Below the pieces are notes generated by a model. That model ran no database searches. It saw nothing but the letters and a program-made list of their open reading frames with translations, and had not been told where the DNA came from. From Fischerella sp. CENA71 (GTDB lineage: Bacteria; Cyanobacteriota; Cyanobacteriia; Cyanobacteriales; Nostocaceae): DNA of 64,000 nt. How positions within the stretch are numbered: the first letter of the stretch is position 1; each line of letters opens with the position of its first letter. This document shows, in pieces, positions 45,443-57,477 of this stretch. The position numbers were made by a program, and so were the translations under genes. The stretch spans positions 124,001 through 188,000 of the forward strand of contig JANBVI010000008.1 in NCBI GenBank assembly GCA_024239075.1, in the 5' to 3' direction.

Positions 45443-47155
45443 ATTGGACTTTGGACAAAAAGGCTCGTTCGCGAGTGATACTCGCGAACAAATTAACAAG
45501 ACATGATAAACTACCTCAGTTATTTTCATAACCGAGTAAAATGAATCAAAAAGCAGAGTAATTACGCAGCTTTACTATTTACAGGTGTTGTTTTAGACTG
45601 TTTTTTGACTACAGGCTGCTTTGTTCTTCGTCTAATTACTTGACCTTGAAGCCGACCAATTGAATTTCCTCGGGTTTTGGGAGAACGGGCAGGTGTCCCA
45701 ATCTCTGAAATAATTCTTTGAAAATCTCTTTGCACCACACAAGGGGTTACAATCTTATCATTATTTTGTTTTAAATAACGTTCCCAAGGCTTTGGTAAAT
45801 GTGTTGCTAAATGCTTTGCAGCCCATAGCTGCACGTAAGCTAATAAGACGAATTGTATCCAATTTTCCTCATGTTCGACATCTGGAGTTTGAAATTGGGT
45901 CATCAGCAAACGCTGCTTCCCAAATCGCAGCATATGTTCAATGTCAAATCGTTGTCTGTAGCAAGAATAAGCAAGCGTAGGTGAGATTTGTTCACGTTTT
46001 TCGCCCATGACAATTAACCACATGGGTTTCCAGACAGTTTGATTGGTATCGTCAGTCACACTAATTCTAATAAGGGTGAAAGGATGACGGTACATTTTTT
46101 GATGCTTAGTTCCTCTGATTAACATTTGATGCCAAGCTTGTATGGTTACATTTAGAACACGACCTTTACGAGTTATCTGTTGTATAAGGGTTGTTTCGTC
46201 TGGAGAATGCCAAGTATCAGCATCGCCTAAATCAAACCGTTCACCGTATTTTTTTGGGCAGCCACGTTTTTTATTTAACTCTTCAATTGGTGGAGATTGG
46301 TAAAAGACTCGATTGCTACGACACCGGGCTATCACTACTAAATTGCTGTGTTCGGACTGTTCAACAAGGAACTTGCGTTTACTAAAAGCAGTATCTGCGA
46401 CCAATACAGAAACTTTTTCATGCCAGGGGAGTGATGAATCTGACATTGCAACTTGAATTTGCTCGCTTGCGACATCAACACCATCTGTATCGAGAGGTAC
46501 TCTTTTTCCTGATCAGGGAACTGCCCATGCTGCGTGATTATCAGTTTCTTTCTCAGGTAAAATTGAAAGCAGTGAGTAAGAATGACCAATATTAATCGGT
46601 TGTTACCTTTGACTGTATTGGGTTGATAAATATACCCACGTTCAGCTAAAATTTTAGCGTAAGGACGTGGATGGGGTGTTGTATCAGTTGTAAATAAGTA
46701 AAAAGGTCGTTGTTGTGGTTTCTCAATCAACTGAGATACTGCTCTAATTAATTTAGAAGATGTTTCTTCTTTTTTTTCATCGTCACTTTTATCTTCTATC
46801 TTTGTATTAAATGATTCTTTTATTGCTTTATAAATAGAATTATAACTTCTTTGAAATAAAGGATTTAAAGATAACTCTGCAATTGAATTAGCGTCCGTAT
46901 TTCCCGAAAGAGCATCCAACAAATCCATACAAGCATCCTTACATGAAGAGAAACATTTGTAAATTTTCTGTCTAAAATCCTGGAATTGAGTTATTAATTG
47001 ATTGTTATTTAATTTAGGAATAGCCATCAGTATTTCCCACTTAACGCTTTGTCGTTGATACTACTATGCGTTGGGAATGATAGCTATCCTTTTTTTATGC
47101 CTGAATTTAATTCGCTAGCTTTTCTCGCGAACCAGTTTTTTGTCCAAAGTCCAAT
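45443..47155. mobile_element. 1.7-kb insertion sequence with 5-bp target duplication
   Basis: A 1713-bp element with inverted ends ATTGGACTTTGGACAAAAA (left) and the matching right end ending GTCCAAAGTCCAAT, flanked on both sides by AATAC (45438-45442 and 47156-47160). It carries one minus-strand transposase gene. The intact duplication shows simple, complete insertion. Family is not certain; the transposase resembles a type common in Nostocales. Confidence 0.9.
45562..47027 (-). pseudogene. Transposase of the 45.4-kb IS, frameshifted
   Basis: The 5' part (MAIPKLNNNQLITQFQDFRQ to RGYIYQPNTVKGNN) and the 3' part (LPWHEKVSVLVADTAFSKRK to the basic tail) are in different frames. The shared frame between them reads INIGHSYSLLSILPEKETDN and, after a TGA, SGKRVPLDTDGVDVASEQIQ. 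So one single-base indel near 46615 and one nonsense codon near 46510 inactivate it. DDE-type residues are plausible in LVADTAFSK and the C-terminal YRQRFDIEHMLRFGKQRLL (Y-R-E-K-like). Because the flanking duplication is intact, the insertion is relatively young yet already dead. Confidence 0.85.
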
Positions 47156-47579: not shown

Positions 47580-48691
47580 GGTAAAAGAACATCAGATATC
47601 TTTTTTGACACAGAAACATGAGTGACATACTGACACACATTGAAGAAAATCCTAAAGAAACACAGAGGTTAATTGGTATAAAGTATGAACAGTTATAACA
47701 GTTAATTCAAAATGCGGAACGATTACATGACGAAAAACAAGCTATCTTAGAATTAAAGAAAATTAGAATTATCTCTGGTGGAGGTGGGCGTAAACCAAAA
47801 TTATCTAGAAAGAAAAAATAATTTTAACCTTGGTTTATCTCAGACATTTGACCACATTTCAACTTCTTGGCATTCAGTTTGGAGTCAGTGAATCTACGGC
47901 AAATGATACATTTAATTATTGGTTGCCAATATTGAGAGAATTGCTTCCATCCAGTTTAATTGAACAAGTAAAAAAAAAGAATCTGACTTGATATTAGTGA
48001 AAGAAATACTCACAGATTATGAATTAATTGTAGACAGCTATGAACAAGTCAGAGAAAGACAAGCGAGAGAATGATGAACAAGAAAAATATTTTTCAGGCA
48101 AGAAAAGTAATCATACCTTTAAAAGTCAAATGATTGTCATGCCTGATGGTAGAGATATTGTTGATGTTGTGGCAGGAGAACCTGGACCAAAAAGCGATAT
48201 AACAATATTTAGGGAATATCGCTCAGAGTTTGACCTCCAACAAAGATTTAAAGGAGATAAAGCATATTTTGGAGAAGATTTAATTACAACTCCCATTAAA
48301 AAACCAAGAAATCGAGAACTAACAACTGAACAAAAAGAACAAAACAAACAATTTTCATCTAATCGGATATTCGTTGAGCATCGAATTCGGTTAGTCAAAA
48401 TATTTCGAGTTATCCAAGAACGATTTCGGCTAAATCCTCAAAAATATGAACAAATAATGCTGACAATTTGTGGATTAGTAAGATTGCGAATTAGGGCGCT
48501 AATATTACCAGGAGAAATATCCTCTATGTCATCGGGTTAAAATTAACGTATATAACTAAATATTTTTGCCTAATTATCAACATAAAATATCTCAAAGCCT
48601 TATTTTATCGTAGATATTAGCTAATTTACTATGATTGCATTTATGCCCTCTAACCTAGTTTTACAAAGGGTTTGATTATTTTTGGAGATGT
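47554..48691. mobile_element. IS5-like insertion sequence (defective)
   Basis: A 1138-bp element with inverted ends ACATCTCCAAAA at both sides (left at 47554, right end GGAGATGT at 48684-48691). It truncates a hypothetical gene on its left and a substrate-binding protein gene on its right. No clear target duplication. Confidence 0.8.
47618..48540 (+). pseudogene. IS5-family (DDE_Tnp_4-like) transposase with stops and frameshifts
   Basis: Pieces in order: MSDILTHIEENPKETQRLIG with a TAA after YEQL, then ELKKIRIISGGGGRKPKLSR, FQLLGIQFGVSESTANDTFN, ILTDYELIVDSYEQVRERQA, and the long intact 3' part KKSNHTFKSQMIVMPDGRDI, GDKAYFGEDLITTPIKKPRN, EHRIRLVKIFRVIQERFRL. This is the helix-turn-helix plus DDE_4 domain of IS5-group (HARBI-like) transposases. 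At least one stop and two shifts of frame make it non-functional. Confidence 0.85.
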
Positions 48692-50050: not shown

Positions 50051-50821
50051 TTATGACAGGTATAAATCAGGATATAATCGTTGGAATTTAACTCTGGCAT
50101 CTGAAGCAGCAAAACGCCAATCAATTTTAACTTTTTGGTGATTACGTTGTTGCTCCCAAGCATCAATTTCTTGACGTAAAATTTCAATATCGGCAATGCG
50201 ACGTTCCAAGCATTGACGGGAGAGAACAGAGATTTCAATTTCTACTTGATTTAACCCTTCGGGTTCGCCAGTCGCACTCTGCGAGAAGCCGCTTACGCGT
50301 CTACATGGGGGAGACCCCCAAGACCGCGCTGGCTCACCAACTAGCATGTTTTGGAGTGTAGTGAAACTCTAAACGCTCAATAATTCTTCGAGCTTCAATT
50401 GGAGGAAAAGTCTCATATAAAGCAGCAGGAGTATGAGTATTTAAGTTATCTAAAACTACCCGAATTTTATCTGCTCTTGGGAAATGAACATCTACTAAAT
50501 CTTTCATTTGGTGAGCGAAATCTTTTTTGGTTCTTGACTGTGTAACTTCTACATGTCGCCAGCCGTAGTGCGGAGCATAAAAAACAAATAAGTTACACAC
50601 CCCTTTACGAGAATATTGGTAATCTGTTCGTGGTGGTTGTCCAGGTTCACAAGGTAGAGGTTGTACTATATCAGCCAATAATTGATAGGGTCGCTCGTCA
50701 AAACAAACAATCGGGTCAAAAGGGGTAAAATACTCAGCATACAAGCATAGTAAGTCTTCCATTCTATATATGTATTCAGCATTTATTTCCCCAATACACC
50801 ATTCTTCTTTCAACCAAGGTT
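50051..50821 (-). pseudogene. IS630 transposase OrfB (DDE domain), interrupted
   Basis: After the frameshift site the frame reads KPWLKEEWCIGEINAEYIYR, PFDPIVCFDERPYQLLADIV (first Asp), and IRVVLDNLNTHTPAALYETF (second Asp), to RLEFHYTPKHASW. There an 82-bp insertion puts TGA directly after the TGG codon. Beyond it the gene resumes LNQVEIEISVLSRQCLERRI to its end at 50051. Without the insert the block HYTPKHASWLNQVEIEISVL is exactly the conserved C-terminal DDE region with the catalytic Glu, so insertion destroys the active site. Confidence 0.9.
50255..50336 (-). repeat. 82-bp small palindromic element inserted in IS630 transposase
   Basis: On the minus strand it begins TGAGCCAGCGCG, has a central GGGGGTCTCCCCC hairpin and ends GGCGAACCCGAAGGG. 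Both ends match the 56-bp element at 36700, and it lies at the same target form (TGG^T). The middle differs, so the two are length variants of one family. Confidence 0.87.
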
Positions 50822-51250
50822 TTACTTTATTTTTTTTAATGTTGTGCGTACTGTTTCGTCTGAAATGCTGTCAATTAATTCTAGGCTAACTAATCTATCA
50901 GCCAACAATTGCATTGTCCAACTTTCGCATCCAGTTGGTGGATTGCTACAAGCAGTTGCAATTAAAAAAGCTTCTGTTTCTGGAGTCAGCTTTTTATCTC
51001 TACCCTTACGGGGGCGTTCGGCTAGCGCTAAGTCTACTCCTTCTTCTACATATTTCTGACGTGTGCGATGAACTGTTGATTCTCCTACCATTAACATGTC
51101 CGCGATCGCTTCATCTGTATAATCTTCATTTGCTAATAGTAGAATTTGCGCTTTCTTGAAGGTACGAGCCGAGTTTTTCCCTTTTTTGGTTAAATCCAAT
51201 AGTTTATCTTCTTCTTCTTGAGTTAGGTTAACAGTATATTTAGTTGACAT
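50822..51250 (-). CDS. IS630 transposase OrfA (helix-turn-helix part)
   Basis: A 142-residue DNA-binding half: STKYTVNLTQEEEDKLLDLT, the HTH AIADMLMVGESTVHRTRQKY and LAERPRKGRDKKLTPETEAF. It ends at TAA just after an A8 run, a typical slippery site for +1/-1 frameshifting into OrfB in IS630 elements. The OrfA/OrfB fusion is the active transposase; here OrfB is broken. Confidence 0.88.
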   Translation of the reverse strand: MSTKYTVNLTQEEEDKLLDLTKKGKNSARTFKKAQILLLANEDYTDEAIADMLMVGESTVHRTRQKYVEEGVDLALAERPRKGRDKKLTPETEAFLIATACSNPPTGCESWTMQLLADRLVSLELIDSISDETVRTTLKKIK

Positions 51251-52006: not shown

Positions 52007-53293
52007 TTAGTTGTCAGTGTTTTGAATATTACCGCCAATCTGCTCTGCGTTGACAGTGTTAGCATCTACAATTCCACCAGCTATTTGGGAATTAGGTTGA
52101 TAATAAATAGAAACTTTTCCAGAGGTTTGTGCTAATTTTTTATTTAGTCGATTAATTGAAGAAAATAATCGATTAATTACTTTATCTTTATCTTCAAGTC
52201 TTGCTTGATATTGTGCTTCTAATGCTTTATGTGCGAATTCATAACCCTGCATGAAGTCGCCATGTATTTTTGCCTTGTCGGCATCAGGGGCAACTGACAC
52301 TCTTACTACAAGAATACCTTCCCCTTTTTTCTCAATGCTTTGGACATCTAGTTGAGCGCCTTGGTTTTCAACTTCTACTTTCTTGAAAGAGTATGCAAAA
52401 GCGTCCCAGTCTATGCCGTTGCGGAAAATTAGGTCTAAAGTTTCTAATGATTTTTGAAATAATTTAGTAAACTCTCCTGGTGCAAAGTTTCCACTAATGG
52501 GACGGCGTTCTTGTTGGTCTTGGCGGAGGTAAATATAATCACAAATTACGTAAGTGAGATTTGTAGTGCTGTTGGTATGCCAGTCTTCTATACAGGCTCC
52601 TGTGAACGTTGCTCCAGTGAAATTAACTCCTAGTGCTTCAGATTCAATAAGGTTAGCCCTACTAAGATTAGCGTCGCTCAGATTAGCCTGACTCAAATTA
52701 GCCTTATTGAGATTAGCGCCGCTAAGGTCAGCCTGACTCAAATTAGCCTTATTAAGATTAGCGCTGCTAAGGTTAGCCCTACTCAGATTAGCTTCGCTAA
52801 GATTAGCCTGTTGAAAGTCAGCCCCAAAAAAGCTTGCAACAAGATCAGACCCTTTTAGATTAGCTTCTCTAAAATTGGCTTTAGCAAAAGTAGCCCCTCT
52901 AAGGCTAGCTTCACTAAGGTCAGCCTCACTGAGATTGACTCCTCTAGAATCAGAGTTTGTGAGGTCAGCTTTACTAAGACTTGCTGCAAAGAGGTTTGCC
53001 CCGAAAAGGTTTGCTCCTGCAAGGTTTGCTCCTGCAAGGTTTGCGCCGCTAAGGTTTGCTCCTGCAAGGTTTGCGCCGCTAAGGTTTGCTCCTGCAAGGT
53101 CGATATCTCTGAGATTAGCATCTCTGAGGTCAGTGTTTTTCAAGTTAGCATCACTGAAGTTTGCGCCTCTAAAGTTAGCCTCTCTGAGATCAGCACCACT
53201 AAGATTTACCTTGACGTTAAAACTTTTCTTCCACAAATTCCAAAGTTTTATATTTAGTAGAAAAAGGATAACTTGATGTCCTACATTTGCCAT
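52007..53293 (-). CDS. Pentapeptide-repeat protein with C-terminal QIGGNI motif
   Basis: A 428-residue protein. After a short hydrophobic start (HQVILFLLNIKLWNLW) there are about 35 pentapeptide repeats (A-N/D-L-x-x, residues 30-220: NLSGADLREANFRGANFSDA onwards), which form a right-handed quadrilateral beta-helix. Residues about 225-375 are a conserved module (ACIEDWHTNSTTNLTYVICD, GEFTKLFQKSLETLDLIFRN, AFAYSFKKVEVENQGAQLDV) also found in the 597-residue neighbour. A coiled coil follows, and the end carries NSQIAGGIVDANTVNAEQIG-GNI, matching the CHAT protein. It is the last gene of the four-gene minus-strand cluster (71 bases after the CHAT gene). Confidence 0.88.
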   Translation of the reverse strand: MANVGHQVILFLLNIKLWNLWKKSFNVKVNLSGADLREANFRGANFSDANLKNTDLRDANLRDIDLAGANLSGANLAGANLSGANLAGANLAGANLFGANLFAASLSKADLTNSDSRGVNLSEADLSEASLRGATFAKANFREANLKGSDLVASFFGADFQQANLSEANLSRANLSSANLNKANLSQADLSGANLNKANLSQANLSDANLSRANLIESEALGVNFTGATFTGACIEDWHTNSTTNLTYVICDYIYLRQDQQERRPISGNFAPGEFTKLFQKSLETLDLIFRNGIDWDAFAYSFKKVEVENQGAQLDVQSIEKKGEGILVVRVSVAPDADKAKIHGDFMQGYEFAHKALEAQYQARLEDKDKVINRLFSSINRLNKKLAQTSGKVSIYYQPNSQIAGGIVDANTVNAEQIGGNIQNTDN

Positions 53294-53364
53294 CTAACGT
53301 AAGCCTTTTACCTTTTATTATTGAATGCAGCTTAACCTAGTTCTTGTTTCCTCAAAAACAAGGT

Positions 53365-54513
53365 TTACTCCGCCTCCTGCCAACCTTCTATAGAAGCCAA
53401 CAGGATATTAATTAAAGGATTATCAATTAGCTCTTTCAACGCTTCCGTTCCACCTGCTTTCAATGCCCCAATAACTCGCGCTTTTAAAGTAGGATTTTTC
53501 TCAATTTCATCCACAGCCTTAGCCACAACCGTCATTTTTTCTGCACTGGTTGTAGTGGGGTAAGTTTGTTGCAAGTGTTGCAGGAGAGCTTCAATTTCTT
53601 TAGCTGCTTCTACAAGGTTTTGCCTTTGTTCAGGCGTGTAGTTGGTGATATTGCCGCCAATTTGCTGCGCGATAACAGTTTGAGCGTTTACAAGACCACC
53701 TGCAAATTGGGCATTGGAAAGGTCAAAATTAGAAGTTTTATTTTTCATACTTTGCCTATATTGATTACCTTGTATATAGTCACCTTCAATACGCTCGTTA
53801 TAATTACCACTACCCATATTAATAATGCGAGCGCCAGCCATTTTTGCTTTTTTCTCCTTGAAATTAGGTATGAATAAAGTTTTAGAATTATTTCTAATTT
53901 TTATCTTTGGAATGAGAGACTCTGGTATACCATTGAGGTCAATATTATTGCGACCAAATTCAAAAGCATCTTGATAATTTCTTCCTGCACCAAGAGCGTC
54001 ATAAAATGCTACAGAGAAATTAATAGCAGCTTTATCTGTGATAGCGCGTTCCATGCCAATAACACAGTGAATATGCTGATAAATTGCCTCTGCTTGAGCT
54101 TCAGAGTAGCAAGCATTAAGTAGTACGCATTCAATTGAGTCTTTACATAACTCAAATAGGGTTGCTAGTGAGTTTGTACTAACTAGTTGCATTTGACCGG
54201 AGTTATTTTCTAAAGCTATGCCACCTGATTGAGAATTTAAGCGGATAGCATTGCGCTGATGCTGCTCATAATTATTCTTTGAATCTACACCATTATTTTT
54301 TGTAGCGTGACCAGAAAAATGTACAATTTGTGGTTCATTATCTAATAAAGCACGGCGCAAATCATCAATCCGAACTGCCCACCTGGTAATTAATTCAAAT
54401 TCTTCTCTTGCTCTCGAACGTTCCAAAGCAGCTTGGATTTCCCGCACTTCCTCATCTAAACGAAGTTTATTTGTATCTTTTGGATTAGCTGATAAAACTA
54501 AAATTTTTTTCAT
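53365..54513 (-). CDS. CHAT-domain (caspase-like) protein with two shared adaptor motifs
   Basis: A 382-residue protein from the ATG at 54513 (MKKILVLSANPKDTNKLRLD). The CHAT protease domain covers about residues 1-215: catalytic His in PQIVHFSGHATK and catalytic Cys in ECVLLNACYSEAQA, followed by VIGMERAITDKAAINFSVAF. CHAT is related to caspases and separase and acts as a protease in several bacterial immune or cell-death systems. After a linker it has GSGNYNERIEGDYIQG (about 235-250), then AQFAGGLVNAQTVIAQQIGG (about 268-287), then a helical tail (EIEALLQHLQQTYPT to the end). The first motif is shared with both upstream genes, the second with the downstream gene. No transmembrane segment. 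Substrate unknown. Confidence 0.9.
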   Translation of the reverse strand: MKKILVLSANPKDTNKLRLDEEVREIQAALERSRAREEFELITRWAVRIDDLRRALLDNEPQIVHFSGHATKNNGVDSKNNYEQHQRNAIRLNSQSGGIALENNSGQMQLVSTNSLATLFELCKDSIECVLLNACYSEAQAEAIYQHIHCVIGMERAITDKAAINFSVAFYDALGAGRNYQDAFEFGRNNIDLNGIPESLIPKIKIRNNSKTLFIPNFKEKKAKMAGARIINMGSGNYNERIEGDYIQGNQYRQSMKNKTSNFDLSNAQFAGGLVNAQTVIAQQIGGNITNYTPEQRQNLVEAAKEIEALLQHLQQTYPTTTSAEKMTVVAKAVDEIEKNPTLKARVIGALKAGGTEALKELIDNPLINILLASIEGWQEAE

Positions 54514-54539
54514 AAACATACACAATATTATGAAATTGC

Positions 54540-55691
54540 TCAGACTCTGCTAAAAATATAGCCACGTCCATCATTACCTGTGCCATAAAATTTATTGTCC
54601 TTGATGCTTTGTATGGCTATGACAAGCATATATGGTTGCCAACCACTAATTAAGCCTTGTACTTGTAGTATTTGAGTTTGAGGAATAAACGCCCATTGAC
54701 CAGTAAATGGAATATTTGATCCTAATAATCCTGCTAGTTGTATACCTTGAAAAGTTCCATTGGGATAGAAGATAGCTTGCATCATACTTCCATCAGTTAC
54801 TTGTAGGAGCCATTGACCAATGGGTTGAAACTGAATGGGGTCTGATATTTCCAACGGATACTTTTCTGAAACTTTGTGATTGTCATGAAGCAAAATATCG
54901 CATTGTCTTACCCATTCTGTACGACCGATCTGCTCAAATATTGCCCGTGCATCGTGTAACAAATCAATGTGGGTATTATTGCCAGATGTCGCAAGTAAAA
55001 AGGTAGCTTGAGCCTGACGGAATTTATCAATATCACTTATAGGCTCATGCAAAAGATTTAAAACACGATAGAGAATTTTACGCATCTCATACGGCTCATC
55101 AGGTGTTAACTGACCCAGAGCTTGTGCCATATGTAGAAGCACTTCAGTATTTGATGGCTCAAGCTCATTTGCTTCCCGCAGCAGCTTCAAAGACTGCTTT
55201 AGTTTTGCCGTATGTGCTGCCCTATCAAAACCGACAAGTATATCATTCAAGTCAAGTTGAAAAGTATCTCCTATGGCTTGTGCTTTTGCTTTTTCTATCT
55301 TGGATTTGTGACGCTCAAGCTGATCAAAAAACAATTGCTCTGCTTCTGTTTTTAGCAAGACAGCTTTCTTGATAAGTACATCAACACGGGAAATTTTCAA
55401 TTTATCTGCTCGAATCTCCTTGAGATGCTCTCCCTGTTGTTCTAAGCCTTTGACAACATTTAAAATTTCGTCAAGGTTGTTTTGTATAGTTTTGAGTTCC
55501 TGCTGACTTTCTGTCTCAGAAACTAGGCTTGGTTGTACTTCTGTTGGAATTTTTGCAATTTGGCGCAATTGGTCAATGGCTTCTTGTGACGGGTTGACCA
55601 ATTGAATAACAGATCCAATTTGTATATAATCGCCTTGAATGTACTCGTTATAATTGCCGCTATCCAGATTAATAACGTGCCTATTAGCCAT
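54540..55691 (-). CDS. Helical (coiled-coil/TPR-like) protein with N-terminal GNYNE motif
   Basis: A 383-residue protein. The N-terminus (HVINLDSGNYNEYIQGDYIQ) is the shared motif. Residues about 40-135 are a coiled coil (QQELKTIQNNLDEILNVVKG, KAKAQAIGD), and about 145-245 a TPR-like helical region (KLLREANELEPSNTEVLLHM). The last 95 residues look like a beta-barrel-type domain with GQW signatures (PIGQWLLQVTDGSMMQAIFY, FTGQWAFIPQTQILQVQGLI). I do not recognise a named family for the whole. Its start overlaps the stop of the upstream gene by 8 bases, and the CHAT gene lies 26 bases downstream, so it is operonic. Confidence 0.75.
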   Translation of the reverse strand: MANRHVINLDSGNYNEYIQGDYIQIGSVIQLVNPSQEAIDQLRQIAKIPTEVQPSLVSETESQQELKTIQNNLDEILNVVKGLEQQGEHLKEIRADKLKISRVDVLIKKAVLLKTEAEQLFFDQLERHKSKIEKAKAQAIGDTFQLDLNDILVGFDRAAHTAKLKQSLKLLREANELEPSNTEVLLHMAQALGQLTPDEPYEMRKILYRVLNLLHEPISDIDKFRQAQATFLLATSGNNTHIDLLHDARAIFEQIGRTEWVRQCDILLHDNHKVSEKYPLEISDPIQFQPIGQWLLQVTDGSMMQAIFYPNGTFQGIQLAGLLGSNIPFTGQWAFIPQTQILQVQGLISGWQPYMLVIAIQSIKDNKFYGTGNDGRGYIFSRV

Positions 55692-55761
55692 ATTCTGAAT
55701 AATCTCCCTTTATATAATCACCTTGAATATCCTCGTTGTAATTTCCATCTCCCATATTTAT
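55620..55761 (-). other. Two adjacent copies of the GNYNE-I-GDYI motif
   Basis: The end of the 597-residue gene (55687-55761) and the start of the 383-residue gene (55620-55676) each encode the motif, only about 10 bases apart across the overlapping stop/start. The third copy lies at 53767-53814 in the CHAT gene. DNA as well as protein is conserved (for example TATATAATC-CCTTGAAT on the plus strand), which suggests recent duplication or gene conversion. Confidence 0.8.
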
Positions 55762-57477
55762 GGTGCGATTTTCGCTGTAAAAACTAGGACGTTCTAACGC
55801 CGTCATGACCATATTTTCTAATCTGCGAATTTGATTCTCTTTTTCTGCTACTAATAATTTTATTTCTCGTGCTGTTAAGGCTTTTATCTCATTGTAAGTA
55901 TCAAAATATTCAGCACTTAATTCAGACTTATCAGCAGTTTCTGCTGTCTTGGCTCTAAGTAAAAACTTATCCTGACCCCGTTTTTCCATTGCCACAATTT
56001 CTAGTTCTGCATCTGGATTGTTTTCAGCTAGTTGTTTAAAGGCGATCGCAATCGCTCTGGGATCAACACCTTGGTTGTGGTAGAGGTCGAGGGTATCAAC
56101 AATTGGTTTGATAAAGTCGGCAAAGTCGCCGTCAGAAAATTTTTCTTCCCAATTGTCAGGCTTACGGTGGGGGTTAGGGTCTTCTTTAGTTGGGAGTCGC
56201 ATAAAAACATACTCACACCTCACCCCATGCAACTTAGTATGATTTGTAATGCCCCAGTCTTCGATAGTTGCTCCTGTTAAAGTAGCTCCTGTTAGGTCTG
56301 TTGCATCTAGTTGGGTTTGTACCAGCTTTGACCGCGATAAATCTGTATCTTGTAAATTAGCCTTATTGAGGTCTGTGCTGACAAAGCTAGCATCTTTCAG
56401 GTTGGCTCCACGCAAGTTGATACTGCATAGGTCAAGGCGATCAAAGTTTTGATCTTGTCCATCATTTGTAATTACCAATTGCTGTACCTTGGGATTTAGG
56501 AGATAACTTTCTCCTAGTCGGGCATAGTCTAGCTTTTGAGCTTGGAACCAGTAAGTACGGTTGAGTTTAGCACCTCTGAAATCTGTACTTTTGAGGATTG
56601 TTTGGCTAAAGTCTGCATTTGTCAAATTGCTCCTTTGAAAACTAGTTCCAAATGTTGTCGCAATGGCAACGGCAATATTGCGAATGAAAGCTTGCTTTTG
56701 ACCTTTAAAGAAAGCGCACCGACCAACGTAAGTAGAAGACGCTGTTACTCCCACTGCCACTGCTACTGCTCCTGCCATTGTCACTGTGAGTGTCACTGTC
56801 GTCCCTGCTGAAGCTGCCGCTCCCGCTAGTATCATCGCACCTGTGGCAGTCACTGCTTTTACCACGACCGCTACTCTTAGCCATGCTAATGTCACTATCA
56901 CGATTACTGTCGCTAGGACTGCTCCGATCATGGTTCCTAGCCCTGACAATGCTACTGCCACTGCCCCAAGTACAACTACCCCTGTCACCAAAAACCCTGT
57001 TCCCACTACTGCTACTGCTGCTGCCACTGTTACTGCCGCTTCCTCTACCACTACCGCTGTCAGTGCGCCCAGCACTGCCACTGCGATCGCTATTGTCCCT
57101 GCCATTAACAAAAATCTAAAGGCTGCTACTAAATTTTGATCAACAGCAACGATTAAAAAAACTGCTAGTACTACTAAACTGACTACACCAGCAAACAGAT
57201 AATTTAAATCGCCACTAATTAGGCAAAGTCCGATGGCAGCTCCACTAACTGCTGAAATAAAACCTGAAACTGCCTCGAGCAGTAATGAAAATATGACTAA
57301 GCTAATTGTCCAACGGTTCTGTAGCCCAGCCTTAGCCCCTGTAAACTTTGCCCCTCTTAAGTTAGCGTTACTAAAATCTGCACCTCGGATATCTGCACCA
57401 CTAAAATTTGCCCCTTCAAGATTTTGACCTTTAAAGGAGCGGCCACGAAGATTCTGTCTAGAGAAGTCCAGGGGCAT
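55684..57477 (-). CDS. Pentapeptide-repeat protein with large hydrophobic insert and C-terminal GNYNE motif
   Basis: A 597-residue protein, first of the cluster. Residues 1-50 are pentapeptide repeats (NLRGRSFKGQNLEGANFSGA). Residues about 55-250 are extremely hydrophobic and built almost only of Ala, Val, Thr, Gly, Leu and Ile (VVEEAAVTVAAAVAVVGTGF, GAVLATVIVIVTLAWLRVAV), probably five to seven membrane helices. Pentapeptide repeats resume at about 280-415, followed by the module shared with the 428-residue protein (ATIEDWGITNHTKLHGVRCE, DGDFADFIKPIVDTLDLYHN). A coiled coil leads to the last 25 residues, INMGDGNYNEDIQGDYIKGD. It could anchor the complex to a membrane. The long gene-free HIP1-containing region upstream should hold the promoter. 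Confidence 0.85.
   Translation of the reverse strand: MPLDFSRQNLRGRSFKGQNLEGANFSGADIRGADFSNANLRGAKFTGAKAGLQNRWTISLVIFSLLLEAVSGFISAVSGAAIGLCLISGDLNYLFAGVVSLVVLAVFLIVAVDQNLVAAFRFLLMAGTIAIAVAVLGALTAVVVEEAAVTVAAAVAVVGTGFLVTGVVVLGAVAVALSGLGTMIGAVLATVIVIVTLAWLRVAVVVKAVTATGAMILAGAAASAGTTVTLTVTMAGAVAVAVGVTASSTYVGRCAFFKGQKQAFIRNIAVAIATTFGTSFQRSNLTNADFSQTILKSTDFRGAKLNRTYWFQAQKLDYARLGESYLLNPKVQQLVITNDGQDQNFDRLDLCSINLRGANLKDASFVSTDLNKANLQDTDLSRSKLVQTQLDATDLTGATLTGATIEDWGITNHTKLHGVRCEYVFMRLPTKEDPNPHRKPDNWEEKFSDGDFADFIKPIVDTLDLYHNQGVDPRAIAIAFKQLAENNPDAELEIVAMEKRGQDKFLLRAKTAETADKSELSAEYFDTYNEIKALTAREIKLLVAEKENQIRRLENMVMTALERPSFYSENRTINMGDGNYNEDIQGDYIKGDYSEYG

Follow-up and report, generated by a model that had tools for sequence, protein, structure and literature searches.

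What joins a CHAT protease to two pentapeptide-repeat proteins and a coiled-coil protein when their genes stand in one tight row? The question is raised by four minus-strand open reading frames, here called A, B, C and D in order of transcription, in a 64,000-nucleotide stretch of DNA from Fischerella sp. CENA71 (contig JANBVI010000008.1, positions 124,001 to 188,000). This whole stretch is referred to as the window, and coordinates are those of the window unless a locus number (L) is given. Two short motifs are shared among the four proteins, are confined to them in their own genome, recur in adjacent genes of other genomes and agree in class between neighbours. The motifs are predicted to be disordered, and the His/Cys pair of the CHAT domain is conserved. 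On this basis, the cluster is probably a small amyloid-type (prion-like) signalling module of an immune or cell-death response. Amyloid folding, the role of B as a sensor, the order of activation and an outcome in death or arrest are what we infer from these observations.

Two short motifs link the four genes

According to the open reading frame list of the window, gene A lies at 55684..57477 (597 aa), B at 54540..55691 (383 aa), C at 53365..54525 (386 aa from a TTG start, with an ATG start at 54513) and D at 52007..53293 (428 aa). The last 8 bases of A are also the first 8 of B, B and C are separated by 26 bases (counted to the ATG start of C), and C and D by 71 bases. These coordinates agree with the initial annotation, which had described four genes on one strand in tight order with gaps of -8, 26 and 71.

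Motif M1 consists of 24 aa with the core GNYNExIxGDYI. It was found at the C-terminus of A (55696..55767), at the N-terminus of B (55608..55679) and, in C, after the CHAT domain (53758..53829). Motif M2 consists of 29 aa with the core AGGxVxAxTVxAxQIGGNI, and it was found behind M1 in C (53638..53724) and at the C-terminus of D (52016..52102). All these positions are profile matches on the minus strand, and of the four proteins C alone carries both motifs.

It had been claimed that the genes are linked by short motifs rather than by whole-domain homology. In blastp comparisons, the pairs A-B, A-C and B-C indeed gave significant alignments only across 22-24 aa of M1 (E about 1e-4 to 5e-7), and C and D gave a gapped alignment of 137 columns (26% identity, E 5e-8) that ended in M2. 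However, the claim fails for A and D, because these two are related over whole domains (an alignment of 291 columns at 30% identity, E 2.5e-36), having in common the pentapeptides and an alpha/beta domain that we name PCD.

Profile searches of the 7.47 Mb genome returned three M1 matches, all within A, B and C, and for M2 two strong matches (C and D) together with two weak ones (E 0.006 and 0.6). As the profiles were made from the A-D sequences themselves, the scores of these four proteins follow by construction, and only the absence of the motifs elsewhere is informative. Proline accounts for 0% of M1 and 0.6% of M2 versus 2.9% of whole proteins, while Gly, Asn and Gln together account for 42% and 40% versus 19%. 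Both motifs were disordered in single-chain structure models, and none of the four motif peptides compared with Pfam matched any model at E 10.

The motifs recur in neighbouring genes of other genomes

Of the 388 genomes searched in the order, 38 contain M1 and 27 contain M2, a patchy distribution; both occurred together in 10 genomes, the window genome included (Fisher p 6e-5). A neighbour with the same motif was located within 5 kb for 45 of 92 M1 matches and for 70 of 87 M2 matches. When the matches were placed at random in 7.5 Mb, only 0.4 (M1) and 0.8 (M2) had such a neighbour on average, with maxima of 6 and 7. In a phylum-wide sample of 386 genomes, which overlaps the order sample, M1 was matched in 10 genomes and M2 also in 10. 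The matches outside the order were one for M2 and two for M1 (E 0.003 to 0.008), and all convincing ones fell inside the window's order. No M2 relative was found in the viral contigs searched.

Using local profiles, we annotated 60 fetched stretches (59 from other genomes, 1 from the window's own), the window and the Westiellopsis loci, which gave 122 non-redundant motif proteins in 56 loci. A same-strand partner that shares the motif and lies no more than 600 bases away was seen beside 29 of 41 pentapeptide/PCD proteins, beside 14 of 16 short proteins made of a motif and a helical domain (HEL), and beside 5 of 7 CHAT proteins. In 37 long proteins M1 or M2 stands at the N-terminus, and 21 of them, including B, were scanned with Pfam. 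NACHT, NB-ARC or nSTAND1 domains were identified in 15 (one NACHT below its cut-off), AAA_35 in 2, TIR in 1 and WD40 in 1; the L080 protein and B were the two without an NTPase match. With B excluded, the N-terminal motif stands on a protein of the NOD-like receptor (NLR) type in 15 of 20 cases. In the relatives, such proteins are encoded next to A-type, D-type or CHAT proteins. An additional protein with N-terminal M2, beyond those 21, has the architecture CHAT-TIR-AAA_35.

Parts of the neighbourhood were conserved in several genomes. In Westiellopsis prolifica, a member of the genus to which the window genome belongs, an A-type gene, a CHAT gene and a gene for a NACHT protein with formylglycine-generating enzyme and GUN4 domains are consecutive, each with M1. 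In the annotated set, L067 encodes a single protein composed of an A-type part, M1, M2 and CHAT, which is the nearest parallel to C as a two-motif hub, and the same genome (G361, contig C86) has an 84-aa frame in which M1 and M2 adjoin. A plasmid of Tolypothrix PCC 7910 (L118) carries an A-type pentapeptide-M2-CHAT fusion next to an M2-NACHT gene, a plasmid of Nostoc ATCC 53789 carries pentapeptide-M1 next to M1-NACHT, and in L066 a CHAT gene adjoins an NB-ARC gene. On a Nostoc TCL26-01 plasmid, six of eight consecutive genes contain M2, encoding two pentapeptide proteins, a WD40 protein, a NACHT protein, an AAA-like protein and the CHAT-TIR-AAA_35 protein. The largest cluster met, L121, has seven motif genes. 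The proposal of the initial annotation that the four genes form a linked, adaptor-effector-like module is thus supported by motif sharing and by these recurring neighbourhood parts, but its conservation holds for the parts only: the exact A-B-C-D set was found in no other annotated locus.

A third A-CHAT pair with M1 was observed in Westiellopsis at L163 7046-10182, where merely an 81-aa M1 reading frame follows; the NACHT protein stands there in the other copies.

Adjacent genes carry motifs of the same class

As the motifs differ in class, the pairing of classes between neighbours can be counted. Out of 51 PCD proteins examined, 28 had an adjacent downstream partner with an N-terminal motif, and the class was equal in 28/28. 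These pairs comprise 9 M1-M1, 13 M2-M2, 4 M3-M3 and 2 in which a dual M1+M3 protein meets an M3 partner; the four M3-M3 matches arise by construction, since these pairs themselves supplied the M3 profile. Shuffling the partners 200,000 times gave 10.9 matches on average and 22 at most, versus 28 observed. For M1/M2 pairs only, 22/22 were matched (shuffle mean 11.4, maximum 20). Counting one pair per genome and class with the window excluded, 16/16 were matched, a result attained by 21 of 200,000 shuffles. Mismatched partners were detectable despite the retrieval of loci through M1 and M2, yet none was observed.

M3 is a GDNN repeat (like VQGDNNxxV) in five pentapeptide/PCD proteins without M1 or M2, which were retrieved or noticed by their homology to A. 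For four of the five, the N-terminus encoded by the next gene has M3 in common with them. The M3 loci are L170 5134-9948, L171 5350-8655, L167 5464-8274, L095 1-4473, L074 10219-13659 and L080 1-2148; their next genes are NACHT-annotated, formylglycine-enzyme-like or other. Both M1 and M3 are present in the pentapeptide proteins of L074 and L080.

The window's own genome encodes six PCD proteins, namely A, D, two with a further motif M4 and two without such a partner. M4 (GGMQAAQGxxN), noticed by eye and kept outside the above counts, is common to two of these PCD proteins and their neighbours, one neighbour being a NACHT protein (L178 3675-7985 and L179 662-8261, on contigs C66 and C61). Two pentapeptide/PCD proteins of this genome (L180 6285-8375 and L181 6064-8208) have the near-C-terminal sequence IGSVGxDFNASGQALNLGEI in common and show no obvious adjacent motif partner.

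Domains of the four proteins

Pentapeptide repeats were matched by Pfam in A (6.7e-29) and D (9.8e-61). From its N-terminus, A consists of pentapeptides, a long membrane insert (56683..57330, residues about 50-265), pentapeptides again, PCD (55825..56226, residues 418-551) and M1. The insert contains several hydrophobic segments and was delimited by hydropathy and by the homologous stretch in relatives; a somewhat narrower hydrophobic region covers about residues 56-248. Pfam and hydropathy accordingly agree with the first description of A as a pentapeptide protein with a large membrane insert. Both here and in A-type relatives, e.g. L076 8209-10329, the insert is of low complexity, rich in Ala, Val, Gly and Phe, and highly divergent among the relatives. 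D comprises pentapeptide repeats, PCD (52172..52549, residues 249-374) and M2, and hydropathy analysis found no segment in it above the threshold used. The PCD of A is predicted to fold as beta-alpha-beta-beta-alpha with a long helix. Neither PCD nor the HEL domain of C (53374..53640, residues 296-384) had a convincing Pfam family.

The CHAT domain of C (53893..54510) was delimited by Pfam and local profiles. It matched PF12770 with 48.1 bits (cut-off 24), the CHAT structure 8tl0 at 5.7e-11 and two CHAT models of PADLOC. The His of HFxGH and the Cys of NAC were invariant in 12/12 aligned domains, one of which is a duplicate copy, while the middle residue of HxSGH deviated in 3/12. We take the catalytic pair to be His73 (codon 54307-54309) and Cys139 (codon 54109-54111), numbered from the TTG. 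With a profile score over the cut-off and the His/Cys pair present, C is a predicted protease. A plain CHAT duplication was considered and rejected: the genome has 27 CHAT matches, and M1 together with a full M2 is confined to C, so this gene is more than a simple copy. Another CHAT gene of the genome (L086 6012-7286, contig C13) has an 18-residue M2-like piece just upstream in a 29-aa frame and resembles a decayed M2-CHAT gene.

B is a coiled-coil/helical protein which, apart from its N-terminal M1, has no Pfam family. Its TPR-like match was weak, as were its PADLOC match to LmuA (E 0.019) and its NCBIfam matches. Beyond the motif region, no homologue of B was found among the 388 genomes, where one other match covers residues 5-83. 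In 20 relatives, matches were obtained in three, all inside residues 1-73, and there was no relative on plasmids or in the viral contigs searched. B as a conserved component was therefore rejected, since no homologue extends past residues 1-83 in the genomes, relatives, plasmids and viral contigs searched. By its position, B is a candidate sensor.

Surroundings of the cluster

Promoter-like sites (13 versus 16.2 in shuffled sequences) and terminator-like sites (8 versus 6.2) showed no clear excess. Downstream lie transposase-like reading frames, partly fragmented and named by eye, at 45562-47027, 48040-48540 and 50334-51250. Genes for ChaB and a universal stress protein were identified upstream by Pfam.

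Discussion

How might such a cluster work? M1 and M2 would serve as homotypic templates that are disordered in the single proteins, as predicted. The input side would be B and possibly D, the N-terminal motif of B being placed as in the NLR-type proteins of related clusters. Once input proteins cluster, M1 or M2 would fold into beta structure and recruit its counterpart in C and A. The CHAT protease C would then be gathered, activated by proximity and tied to the membrane protein A. Because C carries both motifs, it would join the M1 branch (A and B) to the M2 branch (D). Proteolysis together with membrane damage or growth arrest would be the likely outcome.

Several results weigh against this reading. 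Most loci were retrieved via one of the two motifs, and a single genome contributes several of the pairs. A detected partner or a motif was lacking in 23 of the 51 PCD proteins, and a same-motif neighbour within 5 kb was absent for 47 of 92 M1 and 17 of 87 M2 matches, contig ends being disregarded. Profile searches revealed no M1- or M2-bearing NLR in the cluster or elsewhere in the window's own genome. The likeness of M1 motifs within one cluster (0.73) differs little from that to the same class elsewhere (0.70 and 0.67), and the same holds for M2 (0.63 versus 0.62 and 0.61); no finer cognate tuning is seen, since motifs within one cluster are barely more alike than those elsewhere. The predicted models of PCD and HEL gave no convincing PDB match. 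Finally, the tetrad of the RIP homotypic interaction motif (RHIM), which is [VI]Q[IVLC]G, was absent in 57/57 M2 and 56/57 M1. The core of M2 nevertheless resembles RHIM and BASS3 in its Q-hydrophobic-G-G order, and a [Q/R]xG step is present in 56/57 unique M2. Membership of M2 in RHIM/BASS3 was rejected, as the strict patterns were found in 0/57.

The initial annotation had stated that no such system is known. This is too strong, because motif sharing by NLRs and effectors in adjacent genes has been described as the principle of bacterial amyloid signalling sequences (BASS). In the excerpts of PMC7889193 considered here, BASS motifs are common to adjacent NLR and Bell genes of multicellular bacteria, cyanobacteria included, with CHAT and TIR as less frequent partners, and the BASS or Bell-NLR signalosomes are attributed to Dyrka et al. 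2020. Excerpts of further amyloid-signalling literature were compared as well (PMC8086366, PMC12261475, PMC9815663, PMC7885112, PMC10907252). The likeness to BASS lies in the sharing of a short motif by adjacent genes, with M1 common to A, B and C and M2 common to C and D, and in its placement: in the relatives it is N-terminal on proteins of the NLR type, and the partners carry it internally or at the C-terminus. There are differences as well. An NLR is missing from the window cluster, in which B bears an N-terminal M1 but gave no NTPase match. Insofar as BASS can be compared through its published description, the main partner here is a pentapeptide/membrane/PCD protein instead of a Bell domain, and HEL follows the motif whereas the Bell domain precedes it. 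Clusters here reach seven motif genes (L121), and a CHAT protein has two motifs. No Bell entry was found for HEL among the fold matches and Pfam tallies listed. The fungal HET-S/NWD2 and PP systems are similar in that an NLR and an effector from neighbouring genes have a templating motif in common (excerpts of PMC9815663). However, A-D showed no HeLo match in Pfam, and the PP pattern NxGxQxGxN was seen in 0/57 M2 and 0/57 M1. In the literature collection searched, no listed paper was by its title about pentapeptide-NLR pairing, and none of the papers listed for GNYNE-like strings dealt with the subject by title.

The best-surviving alternative, which we regard as unlikely though worth serious attention, is that the motifs dock like to like in a conventional way, as a beta hairpin or beta-helix cap might, and hold a fixed complex together without forming self-propagating amyloid. 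Such a role resembles the one proposed for effector-associated adaptor domains (EADs). All the genomic evidence consists of shared and matched motifs and is silent on their fold, which suits docking equally. Matching small domains in adjacent genes do couple proteins, according to the consulted parts of PMC7159879. In the EAD/TRADD-N conflict systems (Kaur et al. 2020, 2021; excerpts of PMC7159879 and PMC8195603), matching adaptors couple effectors with NTPase switches in multicellular bacteria, and caspase-like and pentapeptide parts occur. The adaptors described there are globular domains, whereas M1 and M2 are motifs of 24-29 aa, short for a globular domain, predicted to be disordered, rich in Gly/Asn/Gln, poor in proline and, as peptides, free of Pfam matches at E 10. 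No EAD was present among the Pfam matches of A-D or, at E 10, of the four motif peptides, and no TRADD-N entry for PCD among the fold matches and Pfam tallies listed.

A developmental or stress complex that tunes differentiation, rather than an immune or death circuit, seems very improbable. CHAT is named after HetF, and pentapeptide proteins, HetL among them, take part in heterocyst regulation. The HetL model of NCBIfam does match D (1.1e-45, 155.8 bits) and A (7.2e-18, 64.8 bits), but both scores are far under its cut-off of 260 bits, and further pentapeptide models match too. Moreover, the relatives combine the motif with NACHT, NB-ARC, TIR and STAND, several of them on plasmids, and the motifs are spread patchily over the order (38 and 27 of 388 genomes). 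About as improbable is a decaying remnant of a Westiellopsis-type M1 cluster that lost its NLR, gained B and D and no longer functions. The missing NLR, the orphan B, the adjoining transposase-like frames named by eye and the 18-residue M2 piece upstream of the C13 CHAT gene fit such decay. Against it, none of the four reading frames is interrupted and the genes lie close together; conservation of the motifs is good, and C retains the CHAT His and Cys.

Beyond the preferred reading as an amyloid-type module, a wider proposal may be put forward, more tentatively. Filamentous cyanobacteria may possess an exchangeable code of amyloid motifs, in which one pentapeptide/membrane/PCD family carries M1 to M4, each matched to the switch encoded by the next gene, and two-motif proteins wire two channels. 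Such wiring proteins would be C, the L067 protein and the two pentapeptide proteins with M1 and M3. The window would then hold a receptor-poor, two-channel variant with the CHAT protease as its junction.

On our best reading, the signalling logic of the cluster resembles that of known BASS/NLR systems, and what appears to be new is the membrane partner and the two-motif CHAT hub. If this is true, prion-like immune signalling in bacteria would reach beyond the described Bell-NLR pairs and include clusters that combine a membrane scaffold with several switches and with proteases. C would provide a natural two-motif protein for a direct test of insulation and cross-talk between amyloid channels, and a role would be suggested for a protein family that is annotated merely as "pentapeptide repeat-containing".

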